A stretch of DNA of 64,000 nt from Halocatena pleomorpha (lineage in GTDB: Archaea; Halobacteriota; Halobacteria; Halobacteriales; Haloarculaceae). A program made the position numbers and the translations under genes. Shown piece by piece: positions 12,023 to 23,731 of the stretch. The stretch is taken from the NCBI RefSeq assembly GCF_003862495.1, contig NZ_RRCH01000023.1, positions 1 to 64,000 on the forward strand, in the 5' to 3' direction. The notes beneath the pieces are model-generated. The model saw nothing but the letters and a program-made list of their open reading frames with translations, ran no database searches and was not told the origin of the DNA. Position 1 is the stretch's first letter. The number at the start of each line of letters is the position of its first letter.

Positions 12023-13570
12023 TTGAATCGCCGAATCCAGGTTGTAAGGACACTAGCAAGACAGGGGTACAACGCCGACCGAGAGGCTGTAACGCTCCTT
12101 ACGTCGTCGGAGTCACCGTCGCACGTGATCGAAACGATGGCTGACCATCTCCCGGAGGACACGCTTCGCGTCACGGCTGACAACGTACGGGAGGCACTCA
12201 ATCAGTTGGGGAGAGAGATCGATACGACCGCTTCGGTCACTGTCGATCCAGCCAACGTACCGACATCTCAGGGATCGGCCACCACGGACGAGACCGACCA
12301 AAACGGTGTGGCCGACGCCGAACGACATTCCGACCCGGCTAACCGTGACCGTTCGACGCGCGATGACCGTGGTTCCGTAATCATCTCTGGAGACGTTACT
12401 GGTGAGAGCACCGGCACTGGAACGTACGAGACGTTCGTCCAGACGTTTCGGGACCGGTATCAGCGTCTCTCCGAGCAGTTGCGGGGTCGATTGAACCACC
12501 GGCCAGCAGAAACCTTAGCGGAGATGCCGGGCCAGAACGAGGCTGCGATGATCGGCTTGGTAAACGATATCCAGTCGACAAAAAACGGTCACTGGCTGAT
12601 CGAACTCGAAGACACTACCGGAACGTTCAGCTGTCTCGTGATGAAAGACCGGGAGATCGCAGACGCTGTAAACGAGCTGTGTTTCGATGAGTGCATCGGC
12701 GTGGCGGGAACGCTGTCGAACGACGGTGAGATCCTGTTCGTGGACGACATTCACTTTCCAGACATTCCCCACACGTATCGGCCGTCGACGGCCGACCGAC
12801 ACGTCCAAGCCGCGCTCATCTCTGACGTTCACGTCGGCAGTCAGGAGTTTCATGCGGCGGCCTGGGAGCAGTTCACCGATTGGCTCCACACCGAGGAGGC
12901 CGAACGCGTTGAGTATCTGCTCATCGCTGGTGATATGGTCGAAGGCGTCGGCGTCTATCCCGAGCAGGACGAGGAGCTGTCGATCGTCGACATCTACGAT
13001 CAGTACGAACGGTTCTCGGAGTTGCTGAAAGCGGTTCCTGGTGATATGGAGATCGTCATGATCCCTGGCAATCACGACGCCGTCCGGTTGGCCGAACCAC
13101 AACCGGCGTTTGACGAGGAACTCCGGGACATCATGCGCGCCCACGACGCCCGTATCACAGGTAACCCCTCCACGGTCACAATTGAGGGTGTATCCGTACT
13201 GTTGTATCACGGCGTTTCTCTCTATGAGGTGATCATCGACACGCCTGACTTGGATCTAGAGCATCCCCATGAGGCGATGTGCAACCTCCTCAAGAAACGC
13301 CACGTCGCGCCTCAGTACGGCGGCCAACTCCGACTCGCGCCTGAAGAGCGGGATTATCTCGTGATCGACGAGATTCCTGATGTGTTCCATACTGGCCATC
13401 TCCACAAGTTCGGTTGTGGATCCTACAACAACGTATTGGCCGTCAATTCGGGCTGTTGGCAGAAGCAAACGTCATACCAACGCTCACAGGGAATCGATCC
13501 TGACGTTGGCTACGCTCCGATCCTTGATCTCGACACTCACGAAATGACGATCCGGAAGTTCACCGCGTAA
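12023..13570 (+). CDS. polD1: DNA polymerase D small subunit (DP1)
   Basis: This 515-residue protein is the proofreading subunit of archaeal replicative polymerase D. The N-terminal helical region (RIQVVRTLARQGYNADREAV) is followed by an acidic linker and an OB-fold. A calcineurin-type phosphoesterase domain from about residue 265 carries ISDVHVGS, IAGDMVEG, MIPGNHD, LYHG and HTGHLHKFG, the two-metal site of the 3'-5' exonuclease. The only plausible start is TTG at 12023: the reading frame has a stop at 11978-11980 and no ATG or GTG between. It works with the large subunit DP2, which is not in the window. Confidence 0.92.
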   Translation: MNRRIQVVRTLARQGYNADREAVTLLTSSESPSHVIETMADHLPEDTLRVTADNVREALNQLGREIDTTASVTVDPANVPTSQGSATTDETDQNGVADAERHSDPANRDRSTRDDRGSVIISGDVTGESTGTGTYETFVQTFRDRYQRLSEQLRGRLNHRPAETLAEMPGQNEAAMIGLVNDIQSTKNGHWLIELEDTTGTFSCLVMKDREIADAVNELCFDECIGVAGTLSNDGEILFVDDIHFPDIPHTYRPSTADRHVQAALISDVHVGSQEFHAAAWEQFTDWLHTEEAERVEYLLIAGDMVEGVGVYPEQDEELSIVDIYDQYERFSELLKAVPGDMEIVMIPGNHDAVRLAEPQPAFDEELRDIMRAHDARITGNPSTVTIEGVSVLLYHGVSLYEVIIDTPDLDLEHPHEAMCNLLKKRHVAPQYGGQLRLAPEERDYLVIDEIPDVFHTGHLHKFGCGSYNNVLAVNSGCWQKQTSYQRSQGIDPDVGYAPILDLDTHEMTIRKFTA

Positions 13571-14733: not shown

Positions 14734-14878
14734 TCGCGCTGTGAATACGTTTACGACAGTATGTGAATTCCAAACTGTGTATACGCTTTACACAGTTCAC
14801 ACTGTACAACGAATCTGAGACTGTTCGAACGGTACTAACGGTGTTCGAAGTTAGTACTGTCCAAACAGTGTAGACGGT
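14734..14878. repeat. 9-bp tandem array, left arm (about 16 units)
   Basis: Cutting the sequence every 9 bp gives units such as TCGCGCTGT, TACGACAGT, CCAAACTGT, TTACACAGT, TCACACTGT, TCGAACGGT, ACTAACGGT, TAGTACTGT, CCAAACAGT and GTAGACGGT. The consensus is about NNNNACNGT, with one 10-bp step at 14815-14824. The array ends 4 bp before the stop codon of the small ParA-partner gene. It is not coding. It is a candidate centromere or operator array. Confidence 0.85.
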
Positions 14879-14882
14879 AGAA

Positions 14883-15290
14883 TTAGGGGAGGTCGTCCAC
14901 AGCGTCTGGGTCCAGGTCGCGTGCTTCGAGGACGAGCTCCGTTACTTTTTGTGGGTGTTCGTGGGCGAAACGGACCATCGCGTCGTGGGCTTCCCGAACC
15001 TCGAAATCGTCGTGGCCCAGCGCAATCAAGTTGTTCTCGACACTGTTGCACAACACCTTGATGAGTCGTGCGGTCTCCTCATTCGGATAGATCGAGAGTT
15101 TCTTGCTCGTTTGAGCGGCAAACGCCGGCCCTGTGGTCTCGCTTGGATCTGCTGTTTCTGTTTTTGAATCAGTTGCTGATTCGTCCGTTGTGGTTTCGGT
15201 TTCGTTTCCAAGATCCTCGTCAGCTTCGTCCTGTTCACTTGCTCCCTCTTTCACTTGATCCAGTTGGTTTCGTAGATTGCTGCTGTCCAT
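14883..15290 (-). CDS. Small acidic partner of ParA, candidate centromere-binding protein
   Basis: This 135-residue protein is encoded directly after parA: parA ends at 15292 and this ATG is at 15290, so translation is probably coupled. The first 70 residues are acidic and disordered (Asp/Glu/Thr-rich). The C-terminal half begins with a short strand, SKKLSIYPNEETARLIKVLC, and continues with two or more helices (REAHDAMVRFAHEHPQKVTE). A strand followed by helices would suit a ribbon-helix-helix-like dimer, and a flexible N-terminus that stimulates the ATPase is typical of small ParB-equivalents such as ParG. It has no canonical ParB/Spo0J motif. A role as DNA-binding adaptor is inferred from position and from the 9-bp arrays on both sides. 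Confidence 0.6.
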   Translation of the reverse strand: MDSSNLRNQLDQVKEGASEQDEADEDLGNETETTTDESATDSKTETADPSETTGPAFAAQTSKKLSIYPNEETARLIKVLCNSVENNLIALGHDDFEVREAHDAMVRFAHEHPQKVTELVLEARDLDPDAVDDLP

Positions 15291-15291
15291 A

Positions 15292-16155
15292 TTATGCACG
15301 CTCCGCGACGATCCCCGCTAAGGTATCGAAATGTTTGATCTGATCGCACGATGAATCGTACTCCGCCACCGGCTTGTTCTCGGTGAACGAATCTGACAGG
15401 GCGTCACGTTCACGGATACCCGGAAGTGGGATATCACCCCGTCCCTGGTCGTCGATCTGTTCCCATTGCTCATCAGTGATACGCGCGTACTGCGGCAGGT
15501 AGTCGACCCAGTTTTCGTTGAGATCTTCGAGTAGACGGCGGTCCGGTTTCCTCGGTCGGATCGATTCACTCAACATGTTTGGCGTGATCGCGAGGATATC
15601 GGCTGCGCCGTCGGTCGCTTCGATGATCGGTAGTAGTTGCGATTCCATGATACGTTCGAGACCGCTGATGCTTCCCTGACCGGGGATGACCGGCACGATG
15701 AAACTCTGAGCAGCGACGAGCGCGTTGTCGGCCACTTTCGAGGGATCTCCGGGTGTATCTAAAACGACGTACTCATACCCCTCCCCACGCAGCGGATCGA
15801 CAATCTCGTTTTTGAGAATAACGTCGGCGTTCATCTGGTTTTTCATCCGGTCATTGATGGTCGACATCTCTGTAGAACTGGGGACGACGCTGAATCCCCA
15901 TTCCGTCTCGATGAGGAGTTCGGATGGATGTGTGTCTCGGAAAATGACGTTTTCGAGCTGTCCGTTTTTATTGTACGCCTCTCCGAACCCGAGAAACTCC
16001 GTTCCGTGTCCGTTCTTATCGACATCGACATACACCGTTTTCCCATGATTCTTCTGAAGACGGTGTGCGAGATTGATTGCGATTGTCGATTTCCCCATTC
16101 CCCCTTTCAAAATACATACTGCAACGACGCCGTTCTGTGATGTTTGTGGTTCCAT
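15292..16155 (-). CDS. parA: ParA/Soj-type partition ATPase
   Basis: This 287-residue P-loop ATPase belongs to the ParA/MinD superfamily. The deviant Walker A is LKGGMGKST with the signature lysine at residue 17; Walker A' is VYVDVDKNG, and the switch motif VVLDTPGD lies near residue 115. Its C-terminus (GIRERDALSDSFTENKPVAE, then YD) is typical of plasmid and chromosomal Soj proteins. Such ATPases bind DNA non-specifically with ATP and move cargo held by a centromere-binding partner. The ATG at 16155 is chosen over the upstream TTG because it directly precedes the domain. Its promoter lies inside the 9-bp array, which suggests autoregulation by the partner protein. Confidence 0.88.
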   Translation of the reverse strand: MEPQTSQNGVVAVCILKGGMGKSTIAINLAHRLQKNHGKTVYVDVDKNGHGTEFLGFGEAYNKNGQLENVIFRDTHPSELLIETEWGFSVVPSSTEMSTINDRMKNQMNADVILKNEIVDPLRGEGYEYVVLDTPGDPSKVADNALVAAQSFIVPVIPGQGSISGLERIMESQLLPIIEATDGAADILAITPNMLSESIRPRKPDRRLLEDLNENWVDYLPQYARITDEQWEQIDDQGRGDIPLPGIRERDALSDSFTENKPVAEYDSSCDQIKHFDTLAGIVAERA

Positions 16156-17012
16156 ATGTCTCAAAAACTGTGTGAACTGTCTGTACTGTATGAGAGTTCC
16201 CGCAATACTGTACAGACGGTCTATGACGTTAACACATCATAATAATCCCGGTTTACTACGCTTGTTAGTACTGTACAAACAGTGGTAACAGCATACACAG
16301 TTCTTACTGTATCTCTGTGGTCGTCACCCGGGTCGAATGGATACGCCCACCAATGGAATTCTATACTGTCCATACTGTATAGGCTTTGAATTGGACCATC
16401 CGATTACTTCTTCCGAGGATCTTACCAGTGACCACTGTCGAAACGGTATTCACTGTATTCACGGTGTGGAACGTTTAGATCATATCTCCCACTGCGGTTC
16501 CTGATACGGTAACCACTGCTTATACTGTGAGTACAGTGTACACTGTGTTCACCGTATTCGCTGTGTGGTGGCAGCCATAGCTGGTACAGATACACAGTTG
16601 AAGCGGCATAACGCGGTATCGATCAGAGTGGTACAGTAGAGAACGTTTGCACTGTATTCACTGTGTGTAACCGGATTCAAAGCGTTTCCATACTGTTGTT
16701 ACAGTGCTCACGTTTCACACAGTCTAAACCGTGACTACTGAGAGAACAGCTAATACTGTACACGCAGTGTACTATTATCTGTTGTCCGTTTGTCTCCGCA
16801 GATCGATCTAGTCAAACAGTTCACACAGTTACCACTGCTATAGCTGTACTTACATCATCAGCTGTCCATAACGTGTGTACATCACGCACTGCGTACACCG
16901 TATAGACTTTTCAAACATTAAGCAACGTCCAAAGCGTAGCAACGTTTCAAGAACAGCACGGAACCGTGGTTCGGCGGGAAGTCGTATTGATCCGTCGGTG
17001 GTAGCCAATGAC
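16156..17012. repeat. 9-bp tandem arrays, right arm (about 60 units) covering the parA promoter
   Basis: The sequence between parA and the ParA remnant is almost filled by 9-bp units ending in ACNGT. In-phase runs lie at 16163-16198, 16203-16319 (13 units, middle ones degenerate), 16361-16387, 16421-16564 (16 units), 16629-16673, 16688-16768 (9 units) and 16812-16946 (15 units). Clear units include TTATACTGT, GAGTACAGT, GTACACTGT, GTTCACCGT and ATTCGCTGT in direct succession at 16520-16564. Phase changes separate the runs. The first unit starts 8 bp before the parA ATG. There is no open frame of note. Confidence 0.85.
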
Positions 17013-18809: not shown

Positions 18810-19496
18810 TCAGGCGTACTCTGGCCGTTGCTCGTACTGAATCGGGTCTCGGACTCCGATTCGCTGGAACGCTTGGAGCCGGTAGGCACACGCATCGCAC
18901 GTTCCACACGCCGGTTCGTCATTTCGGTAACAGCTCCACGTCAGTTCGTAGGGAACACCGTGTTCGACGCCGTAGGCCGCGATATCCGTTTTTGACCGAT
19001 CGGAAAACGGTGCTTCAATGGTGATCGCTGTCTCGTCTTTCGTACCAGTGTCGACGACGCGTTGAAACGCTTCGAAAAACGCCGGGCGACAGTCTGGATA
19101 GCCCGAGAAATCCTCTGAATGTGCCCCAATAAACACCGCGTCACAGTCGTTTGCTTCAGCGTATGCGACCGCCATCGAGAGGAGGTTTGCGTTTCGGAAG
19201 GGAACGTACGAGTCCGGAACTTCCTCGCTATCGAGATCGGCAGCAGAGACGGTCATCGACTCATCCGTAAGACTCGACGCACCGATTTTCGAGAGGTGAT
19301 TCGTTGTCAACGTTAGGAAGTCCGTCGCTCCGAACCGGTCGGCTTGGGCCATCGCGCACTCGTGTTCTTTCGCTTCGGTTCGTTGTCCGTAGGAGGTGTG
19401 GAGCATGTACAACTCGTATCCCTGTTCCTGTGCGACTGCGGCAGCCGTTGCGCTGTCCATTCCACCGGAGGCGAGCACGACAGCCCGATCATTCAT
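18810..19496 (-). CDS. queC: 7-cyano-7-deazaguanine (preQ0) synthase QueC
   Basis: This 228-residue enzyme converts 7-carboxy-7-deazaguanine to preQ0 using ATP and ammonia. The N-terminal PP-loop motif is SGGMDSATA, and the C-terminal zinc site is CYRNDEPACGTCDAC. In archaea preQ0 is inserted into tRNA position 15 by TgtA and converted to archaeosine. It is the last gene of a queD-queE-queC operon read on the minus strand. Length matches the family. Confidence 0.94.
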   Translation of the reverse strand: MNDRAVVLASGGMDSATAAAVAQEQGYELYMLHTSYGQRTEAKEHECAMAQADRFGATDFLTLTTNHLSKIGASSLTDESMTVSAADLDSEEVPDSYVPFRNANLLSMAVAYAEANDCDAVFIGAHSEDFSGYPDCRPAFFEAFQRVVDTGTKDETAITIEAPFSDRSKTDIAAYGVEHGVPYELTWSCYRNDEPACGTCDACAYRLQAFQRIGVRDPIQYEQRPEYA

Positions 19497-19574
19497 CAGC
19501 GATCACCGTATTGGCTCCTCGTGTTCGGAAACGGTGCGTCGTTCGTCCGTCATCTAGCAGTCGTTCAGCTGAAC

Positions 19575-20339
19575 TCATGTTCCTGGGGCGTCGTTCCAGA
19601 GGTCGACGTGGAGCCGAGGGGTGTATCGATATCCGTTGTCCATCGCCAGTTGCGCCACCTCATTCCGTCGTTCATCGATCGATTCTCGGGTTGTTCCTTC
19701 CGGCATCAACAGCACGTCCGTATCGGTGACCGTGGTTTGTGTCGCGCGTCGCACTCGGTCAACGATCCGCTCGATTTCAGGCAGATCGTCGGCGTCAGTC
19801 ACGACAAATTTGAGCTGAAACTCGTAGGCGTCGAGGAGAGTTGCCAGCGTATCGATGTCGATGCGCTGTGTTTCATGGCGATCGGCCCATTCCCCGTTGC
19901 CTGCCGGATCCCGCGCCGCTACCGGCGTGCTTGAGGAGAGTTTCGGACTGATGCTGAGGAGATCAATCGGTGCTTCCTGATAGATCGTGCCGTTCGTTTC
20001 GACCGTGATGTGGTAGCCCAACTCCGTGAGTCGTTCCATCAGTGGGACTGTCTCGGTGTGAATAAGCGGTTCGCCACCCGTCAGCACGACGTGGTCTGCG
20101 GGGTGGGACTGGATCTCCGAGACGATTGTTTCGAGCGACCACTGGGCGTGGACTGGCTCCCACGACGTATGGTAGGAATCACAGAACCAACACCGGAGGT
20201 TACAGCCGCTCGTTCGGACGAATACGCTCGGCGTTCCAGCCAACTGACCCTCTCCTTGCAAGGAGTAAAACAGCTCGTTGATCGGTAACGCCTCGCTATC
20301 GGATTGATCGGTAGTAGGAATCGAATCGTTGACAGGCAT
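19575..20339 (-). CDS. queE: 7-carboxy-7-deazaguanine synthase QueE (radical SAM)
   Basis: This 254-residue radical SAM enzyme contracts the ring of 6-carboxy-tetrahydropterin to 7-carboxy-7-deazaguanine. The iron-sulfur cluster motif CNLRCWFC (CxxxCxxC) follows SVFVRTSG. VLTGGEPL and VETNGT are the usual SAM-binding motifs, and FYSLQGEGQLAG is the family's N-terminal signature. The start is taken at the ATG at 20339 (MPVNDS), immediately after the queD stop codon, which supports co-translation. It is the middle gene of the preQ0 operon. Confidence 0.93.
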   Translation of the reverse strand: MPVNDSIPTTDQSDSEALPINELFYSLQGEGQLAGTPSVFVRTSGCNLRCWFCDSYHTSWEPVHAQWSLETIVSEIQSHPADHVVLTGGEPLIHTETVPLMERLTELGYHITVETNGTIYQEAPIDLLSISPKLSSSTPVAARDPAGNGEWADRHETQRIDIDTLATLLDAYEFQLKFVVTDADDLPEIERIVDRVRRATQTTVTDTDVLLMPEGTTRESIDERRNEVAQLAMDNGYRYTPRLHVDLWNDAPGT

Positions 20340-20341
20340 GG

Positions 20342-20791
20342 TTACTCGATCGATCCGGCGCACAGTTCGGACGTTTCGCGGACCTGAACCGAAACGGTGC
20401 TCACGGTGTCGGGGAGCGTCTCATAAAGCCGGGCTTCGAGATACGCCGCCATCACTTCCGCTGTCGGTGGATGATCGAATACGATGACGGCGTCTCCGTC
20501 TCCGCTCTGTTCGAACGCATCGATCAGGGGATCGCCTTCTTCGAGTAAGAACCGGTGATCCCACTCGTGGATAACAGACGTCACGTCACCCTTGTCGACC
20601 ACCCAGCCGTCCGTGAGTGATCCCGTGATCTCGACAGAAATCGTGTAGTTGTGGCCGTGTGGACGGCTACATTTGCCATCGTGGTGGAGAAGACGATGGC
20701 CGGAACTGATGCGGATCGGCCGTTCGGTACCGATCCGTAGCGTGCGGACTCGATCACCCATTTCTGGTGGTGCGACCGTTCGATCGGACAT
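20342..20791 (-). CDS. queD: 6-carboxy-tetrahydropterin synthase QueD
   Basis: This 149-residue member of the 6-pyruvoyl-tetrahydropterin synthase family makes 6-carboxy-tetrahydropterin, the first dedicated intermediate of preQ0. The zinc ligands and catalytic Cys are seen in SSGHRLLHHDGKCSRPHGHN; the second zone has DHRFLLEEGDPL, and near the C-terminus RETSELCAG carries the substrate-anchoring Glu. The ATG at 20791 is chosen over an upstream frame extension that crosses the TATA-like ATATATTC. It is the first gene of the operon, overlapping or abutting queE. Confidence 0.92.
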   Translation of the reverse strand: MSDRTVAPPEMGDRVRTLRIGTERPIRISSGHRLLHHDGKCSRPHGHNYTISVEITGSLTDGWVVDKGDVTSVIHEWDHRFLLEEGDPLIDAFEQSGDGDAVIVFDHPPTAEVMAAYLEARLYETLPDTVSTVSVQVRETSELCAGSIE

Positions 20792-20975
20792 AGGTATGAT
20801 ACAGATATACGCTATATATTCTTGACGGAGTATCGATCGCCAACAGTCGCATATCTGCAGAGACGAAGCGATTTCACAGATCAGGTGATCCACTGGGTCC
20901 AACGAGCAGTTACAGAGTTCCCGCCTCTGGTAATCGCCTCACCCGTGTGTCACTGTCTTACTCAATGAGGCACTG

Positions 20976-23668: not shown

Positions 23669-23731
23669 GAGTGCAGTACAGACAGTTTATACTGTACGCA
23701 ACGCTACCGCAGTATCCACAGTCTTTAGGGT
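23669..23731. repeat. Satellite cluster of the 9-bp unit (7 units)
   Basis: Seven in-phase units occur: GAGTGCAGT, ACAGACAGT, TTATACTGT, ACGCAACGC, TACCGCAGT, ATCCACAGT and CTTTAGGGT. They match the consensus of the arrays around parA, about 7 kb away, and lie upstream of a small hypothetical gene. Confidence 0.7.

Follow-up and report, generated by a model that had tools for sequence, protein, structure and literature searches.

What is the function of the regularly spaced short repeats that lie on both sides of a parA gene and its small partner gene in Halocatena pleomorpha? Haloarchaea carry many large replicons, and how these are partitioned is essentially unknown; a review counts what archaeal centromeres are, and how they are distributed, among the open questions (PMC5120986). 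The stretch of DNA that was analysed, below called the window, comprises bases 1–64,000 of the 131,584-bp contig C16 in a genome of 3.65 Mb. The features of the locus and related arrays are listed in the Table.

Table. Positions of the parA locus, its repeat arrays and further ACNGT arrays (window coordinates unless a contig is named)
Feature	Position	Strand	Description
parA	15292-16155	-	287 aa; deviant Walker A ATPase (ILKGGMGKST); without N-terminal DNA-binding domain
Partner, candidate centromere-binding protein	14883-15290	-	135 aa; directly downstream of parA
Left (downstream) array	14738-14878		10 exact ACNGT cores in 2 phase blocks; 9-bp lattice
Phase blocks, left arm	14756-14805, 14820-14878
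Right (upstream, promoter-side) array	16163-16946		32 exact ACNGT cores; several phase blocks
Phase blocks, right arm	16167-16189, 16207-16310, 16365-16378, 16434-16555, 16633-16664, 16692-16759, 16816-16901
Isolated core in right arm	16594
CGGGATTATTATGATGT, predicted core promoter	16234-16250	-	inside the array; 78-99 bp upstream of parA
Satellite mini-array, ACNGT	23673-23731 (C16:23682)		intergenic; 6 cores with at most 1 mismatch, 3 exact
Other ACNGT satellites in the same genome	C16:109022, C4:11723
Three-unit ACNGT match	C59:32228

The product of parA matches the Pfam family AAA_31 (E 1.4e-26, residues 10–171) and shares 85–94% identity with Halocatena ParA proteins and 34–48% with other haloarchaeal members. 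The partner frame starts one base past the parA stop codon (a 1-bp gap), and no third gene was seen in the operon. The locus shares with type Ib partition systems a deviant Walker A motif (KGGMGKS) near the N-terminus with AAA_31 from residue 10, a small partner gene directly downstream that is not related to ParB, and iterated short sites at the operon promoter; Pfam and other domain searches detected no ParB domain in the partner, in contrast to ParABS systems with a ParB-CTPase. The N-terminal part of the partner is acidic and disordered, with a PFDDL-type stretch that is conserved in most clades, and its C-terminal domain consists, in a structure model (pLDDT 89), of the extended stretch KKLSIYP and three to four helices. 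The family alignment spans 33 loci, and no sequence relatives were found in Pfam (including any ribbon-helix-helix, RHH, match), NCBIfam or PDB. Fold searches with models of the full-length protein and of the C-terminal domain, in which the helices were confident, gave no significant match; a ParD2 antitoxin appeared among the hits at a non-significant E of 9.7, and the predicted first helix is long (20 residues). It is nevertheless plausible that the partner is an RHH protein, with which the strand-helix-helix order of the model would fit.

The array unit is a 5-bp core of two-fold symmetry, ACNGT (mostly ACWGT), followed by a 4-bp spacer, which gives 9 bp from centre to centre. A first-pass annotation of the sequence had described 9-bp units here and proposed a test for an excess at lag 9 between 14.7 and 17.0 kb, and such an excess was present against dinucleotide shuffles: the autocorrelation of the right array (16156–16946) reached z-scores of 7.9, 5.7, 3.3 and 3.8 at lags 9, 18, 27 and 36, and that of the left array (14734–14882) a z of 3.7 at lag 9. 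The 42 exact cores (10 left, 32 right) form 21 pairs at lag 9, 14 at lag 18 and 12 at lag 27, with none around the locus at lags 6–8 and 10–17, and merely five exact pairs at lag 9 occur in the remainder of the window. Five exact 9-bp pairs were observed in the left arm and 16 in the right, against means of 0.0 and 0.1 in 1000 shuffles (shuffle maximum 2). With up to one mismatch allowed and a 9-bp neighbour required, the cores number 64 (13 left and 51 right; approximately 1.4 and 7.6 in shuffles). The same annotation had counted more than 70 units in strict phase; the 9-bp spacing stands, the count has to be lowered to about 64, and phase is kept only within approximately ten blocks over both arms, set apart by distances that are not multiples of 9. 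It had correctly placed the end of the left arm by the stop codon of the partner (last core 14874–14878, stop codon 14883–14885) and the start of the right arm by the parA ATG (16153–16155, first core at 16167). Tandem Repeats Finder scarcely detects the array, because the spacers vary freely. The sequence CGGGATTATTATGATGT, which lies within the array and is shared without change by four of the five loci of clade H, 78–99 bp upstream of parA, is probably the core promoter. A 21-bp tandem repeat of approximately eight copies is also present at the start of the contig (window 1–173).

The 9-bp period recurs at other haloarchaeal parA loci, where the first-pass annotation had proposed to look for it. 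When 85k prokaryotic genomes were scanned with the aligned sequences of the window ParA and its two paralogues, the search yielded 80 loci, haloarchaeal almost throughout, and 58 non-redundant loci were left once near-copies had been dropped, three of them from the window genome. In the 300 bp upstream of parA, period 9 ranked first among periods 5–15 in 49 of the 58 loci, and it exceeded z 3 in 49 of 58; it was not the top period in nine, including some of clade X (Haloferax), some of clade N, and clade K. In most relatives the array sits mainly upstream of parA. As a hold-out, 194 Halobacteria genomes were searched with a profile of the partner C-terminal domain; 101 of them, from 44 of 65 genera, gave a match, and a phylum-wide sample gave none outside the order. 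Twenty loci were then fetched from these hits irrespective of ParA and repeats. A ParA Walker motif lay within reach in 17 of them, and period 9 was the top period in all 17, of which 14 were new to the set and seven lacked the known strand motifs of the partner. Viral contigs gave no match to the ParA alignment (A1) at the sensitivity of that search.

The period is shared and the cores differ. When loci were grouped by the extended stretch of the partner (KLSIYP in the window; QHSVYC, QRPFYA, EQFAMF and QAQIYP, for example, in others), every group with more than one member formed a single clade on the ParA tree, partner and ParA clades coinciding. Across the main partner clades the cores are ACWGT, ACATT/AATGT, CTATT/AATAG and CTWAG. 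Among pairs of cores within 45 bp, for which the chance expectation is approximately 12%, those on the 9-bp lattice amounted to 97 of 108 for ACTGT/ACAGT, 54 of 56 for ACATT/AATGT, 362 of 404 for CTATT/AATAG and 14 of 26 for CTTAG/CTAAG (9 of 9 in another clade). Clades H, N, F and D give a diagonal matrix of cores by clades; clade V has the same CTWAG core as clade D, and in clades X, R and K the core is weak or none is clear. A core and its reverse complement occupy one centre-to-centre lattice (55 of 57, 31 of 32 and 114 of 134 mixed pairs), a pattern that a binder with two-fold symmetry about the middle base would require. The same 9-bp spacing with differing cores at related gene pairs looks like a widespread, undescribed family of archaeal centromeres. 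The partner of locus L151 (stretch KKTVYVR), which is outside the window clade, also has KK in its strand and ACNGT-like cores at its locus, a possible case of convergent specificity that we give as a lead.

Two paralogous systems are encoded in the window genome, on contigs C12 and C6, with ACATT/AATGT and CTWAG arrays, respectively, so that three paralogous loci in one cell have three different cores. Five-unit patterns of the C12 and C6 cores matched in that genome only their own parA loci, except that the degenerate first pattern overlaps ACNGT. In the C12 paralogue, a piece of the array (L002, 2420–2850) is duplicated near-exactly approximately 250 bp further along. These data bear on two other readings of the array. 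The partner was assigned as binder on indirect grounds, and a general haloarchaeal chromatin or regulatory protein could be the reader instead; we hold this to be highly improbable, since a shared factor would give one core, whereas three coexist in this genome and, from genus to genus, the core follows the clade of the partner. The cores could alternatively be iterons, that is, sites of an Orc1/Cdc6 or Rep initiator next to which parA merely happens to lie. An orc1/cdc6 gene indeed adjoins the array in Halocatena marina and is found within approximately 4 kb in 15 of the 58 non-redundant loci; however, none was found in the examined flank of the other 43 or on contig C16, and the dependence of the core on the partner clade is not what initiator sites would lead one to expect, all of which makes iterons very unlikely.

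Selection appears to act on the cores themselves. The upstream arm aligns with that of Halocatena salina at 66% identity where aligned, and the A, C, G and T positions of the cores are conserved in 120 of 132 cases against 36 of 64 spacer bases (Fisher p 7e-8), a comparison that is supportive and not clean, because the aligner favours matching cores. In clade F (L023, L032, L035 and others) the array runs in register through the ATG into approximately the first 20 codons of parA, where its units encode x-Asn-Ser tripeptides; the annotated parA start of Haloplanus rallus, 69 bases ahead of the conserved domain, takes in such a stretch. Asparagine codons in the array stretch of this clade are AAT:AAC 77:2, versus 90:173 in the remaining parA (p 1e-26), and serine codons are biased towards AGY (108:32 versus 107:280, p 1e-24), both p-values being inflated by near-copies within the clade. 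This codon bias argues that the DNA has been selected beyond the protein. A functionless microsatellite, expanded by slippage and then decayed, would account for the tandem arrangement and for a period of three codons. It would not account for cores that are kept while spacers vary, that flip orientation yet stay on the lattice, that differ between clades at the same period, and that are preserved by codon bias inside parA, and the chance that slippage explains the array is next to negligible.

Smaller ACNGT arrays, or satellites, are found away from the operon (Table). The satellite on contig C4 is located between an MFS transporter gene and a second gene, and the 532-kb plasmid of H. salina has a satellite at 88.9 kb, likewise between an MFS transporter gene and a second gene; the flanks of the two align at 83% identity, which indicates an orthologous position. 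Satellites sit mostly on the parA-bearing replicon. In Actinarchaeum, four occur on chromosome 2, which bears parA, and chromosome 1 has an intergenic array and a weak match within coding sequence. The chromosome-1 array (G002:C1:1916091-1916158, L114) has approximately eight ACNGT units, is apparently intergenic and is distant from the clade-H parA. Its reading as coding sequence was rejected, as no convincing gene covers it, and with at least one such array on chromosome 1, the main chromosome, the satellites are not strictly replicon-specific. The parA locus of the window is adjoined by homologues of the DNA polymerase D small subunit and of queC/queE/queD (12023–13570 and 18810–20902), and the H. 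salina plasmid has the same parA locus together with homologues of queC-queE-queD, the DNA polymerase D small subunit and ribonucleotide reductase genes. From this gene content the plasmid resembles a secondary chromosome, which suggests that the parA replicon is a secondary chromosome with core genes.

The satellites also weigh against a purely regulatory role, in which the array would serve the partner for autoregulation of parA, with the true site or function of partition elsewhere. The promoter-side array does span the promoter and leader, the array lies chiefly upstream of parA in most relatives, and much of the sequence evidence would look alike if the array were an operator and not a centromere. 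Dozens of units over approximately 780 bp and a second arm past the partner stop codon nevertheless exceed the need of a single operator, which would explain neither the distant satellites nor the units in frame inside parA, and in omega/parS and ParG the operator itself belongs to the centromere (PMC5016525). We therefore consider an operator alone unlikely.

The reading that we favour, and regard as probable on the sequence evidence, is that this is the ParA partition locus of a haloarchaeal secondary replicon, with arrays that would be recognized by the partner and serve both as centromere and as operator for autoregulation. The first-pass annotation had proposed such a dual site, and the lag-9 excess, the same period in homologues, the dependence of the core on the partner, the retention of cores while spacers drift and the codon constraint in clade F make it the best explanation. 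The partner would bind the ACNGT cores as a two-fold symmetric dimer, and dimers placed side by side each 9 bp would form nucleoprotein stretches flanking the operon on both sides. This complex would be the centromere, captured and moved by nucleoid-bound ParA-ATP, to which the N-terminal tails of the partner would be presented and whose ATPase they may activate, by analogy with omega on parS, and segregation would follow. The promoter of parA and its 5′ leader fall within the promoter-side array, so that the partner would also repress its own operon, and the satellite arrays would act as extra attachment sites, mostly on the same replicon.

Several known systems are comparable. The heptad consensus of omega, WATCACW, has 22 matches in the window against 21.75 expected by chance, and none in the arrays. 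In the δ/ω/parS system of the streptococcal plasmid pSM19035 (type Ib), the ParA ATPase likewise has a separate, small partner that binds DNA. Short repeats, contiguous and of either orientation, serve there as centromere and overlap promoters, and several parS sites are dispersed on one plasmid (PMC9499535, PMC5016525). At least four contiguous heptads are needed for omega to activate ParA, and repeat orientations work alike (PMC9499535). In contrast to the locus described here, with a period of 9 bp (5 + 4 bp) and clade-specific cores, omega has a period of 7 and one heptad consensus, is a proven RHH protein, and its gene is transcribed separately from that of delta. The parH site of plasmid TP228 is made of 4-bp boxes with AT-rich spacers at a period of approximately 8 bp. 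ParF-ParG-parH is like our locus in that its ParA has a small partner encoded downstream, that spaced short boxes precede the operon, and that operator and centromere are adjacent, as is proposed here (PMC5016525); the box and spacing differ, however, and ParG is a proven RHH protein, is shorter, and has no detected sequence relation to the partner. Among archaea, SegAB of Sulfolobales and some Euryarchaeota also combines a ParA with a small partner that has a disordered N-terminus, and its sites precede the operon and are also scattered along the chromosome (PMC12284271). The SegB site is, unlike ours, a single 13-bp palindrome, TCTAGASTCTAGA, with no 9-bp lattice; five matches in the window, each with three mismatches, against 9.1 expected by chance, show no enrichment. 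ParA-ParB-AspA of the Sulfolobus plasmid pNOB8 is similar in that it partitions an archaeal plasmid through a small, site-specific protein able to spread along DNA (PMC5120986), and differs in its three proteins, 23-bp palindrome and ParB-like adaptor.

The locus is thus similar to omega/parS and ParG/parH, both of type Ib, but has a period and a protein family of its own. The first-pass annotation had spoken of a new type of centromere, which is apt for the protein family; the principle, an array of short boxes read by a small ParA partner, is already known from bacteria (type Ib). In the open-access literature we found no mention of 9-bp repeats next to parA in haloarchaea, nor a description of the interchangeable cores, the partner family, the overlap with the parA frame or the haloarchaeal spread. 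A bolder reading, which we hold to be possible and rather doubtful, is that of a distinct archaeal class, in which a haloarchaea-specific DNA-binding family outside the known RHH proteins would assemble into a filament along 5-bp cores set on a 9-bp lattice, paralogues in one cell would switch core specificity and thereby keep their replicons from competing, satellite centromeres would lie along secondary chromosomes, and the centromere could overlap the parA reading frame because 9 bp equal three codons.

For a family present in 101 of 194 sampled haloarchaeal genomes, the arrays provide a concrete and testable candidate centromere. The natural specificity variants, with at least four cores, permit swap tests of partner and core, and the sequence signature can be used to locate the partition sites of plasmids and secondary chromosomes in haloarchaea and to recognize what may be their incompatibility groups. 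A repeat of another kind was encountered at locus L005 (G000:C26, approximately positions 1330–1420 of the locus), where 13-bp tandem repeats, approximately four to five copies of TGGTGTTCACTAC, lie upstream of a distant ParA with a different downstream frame of 128 aa, perhaps another type of partition site.
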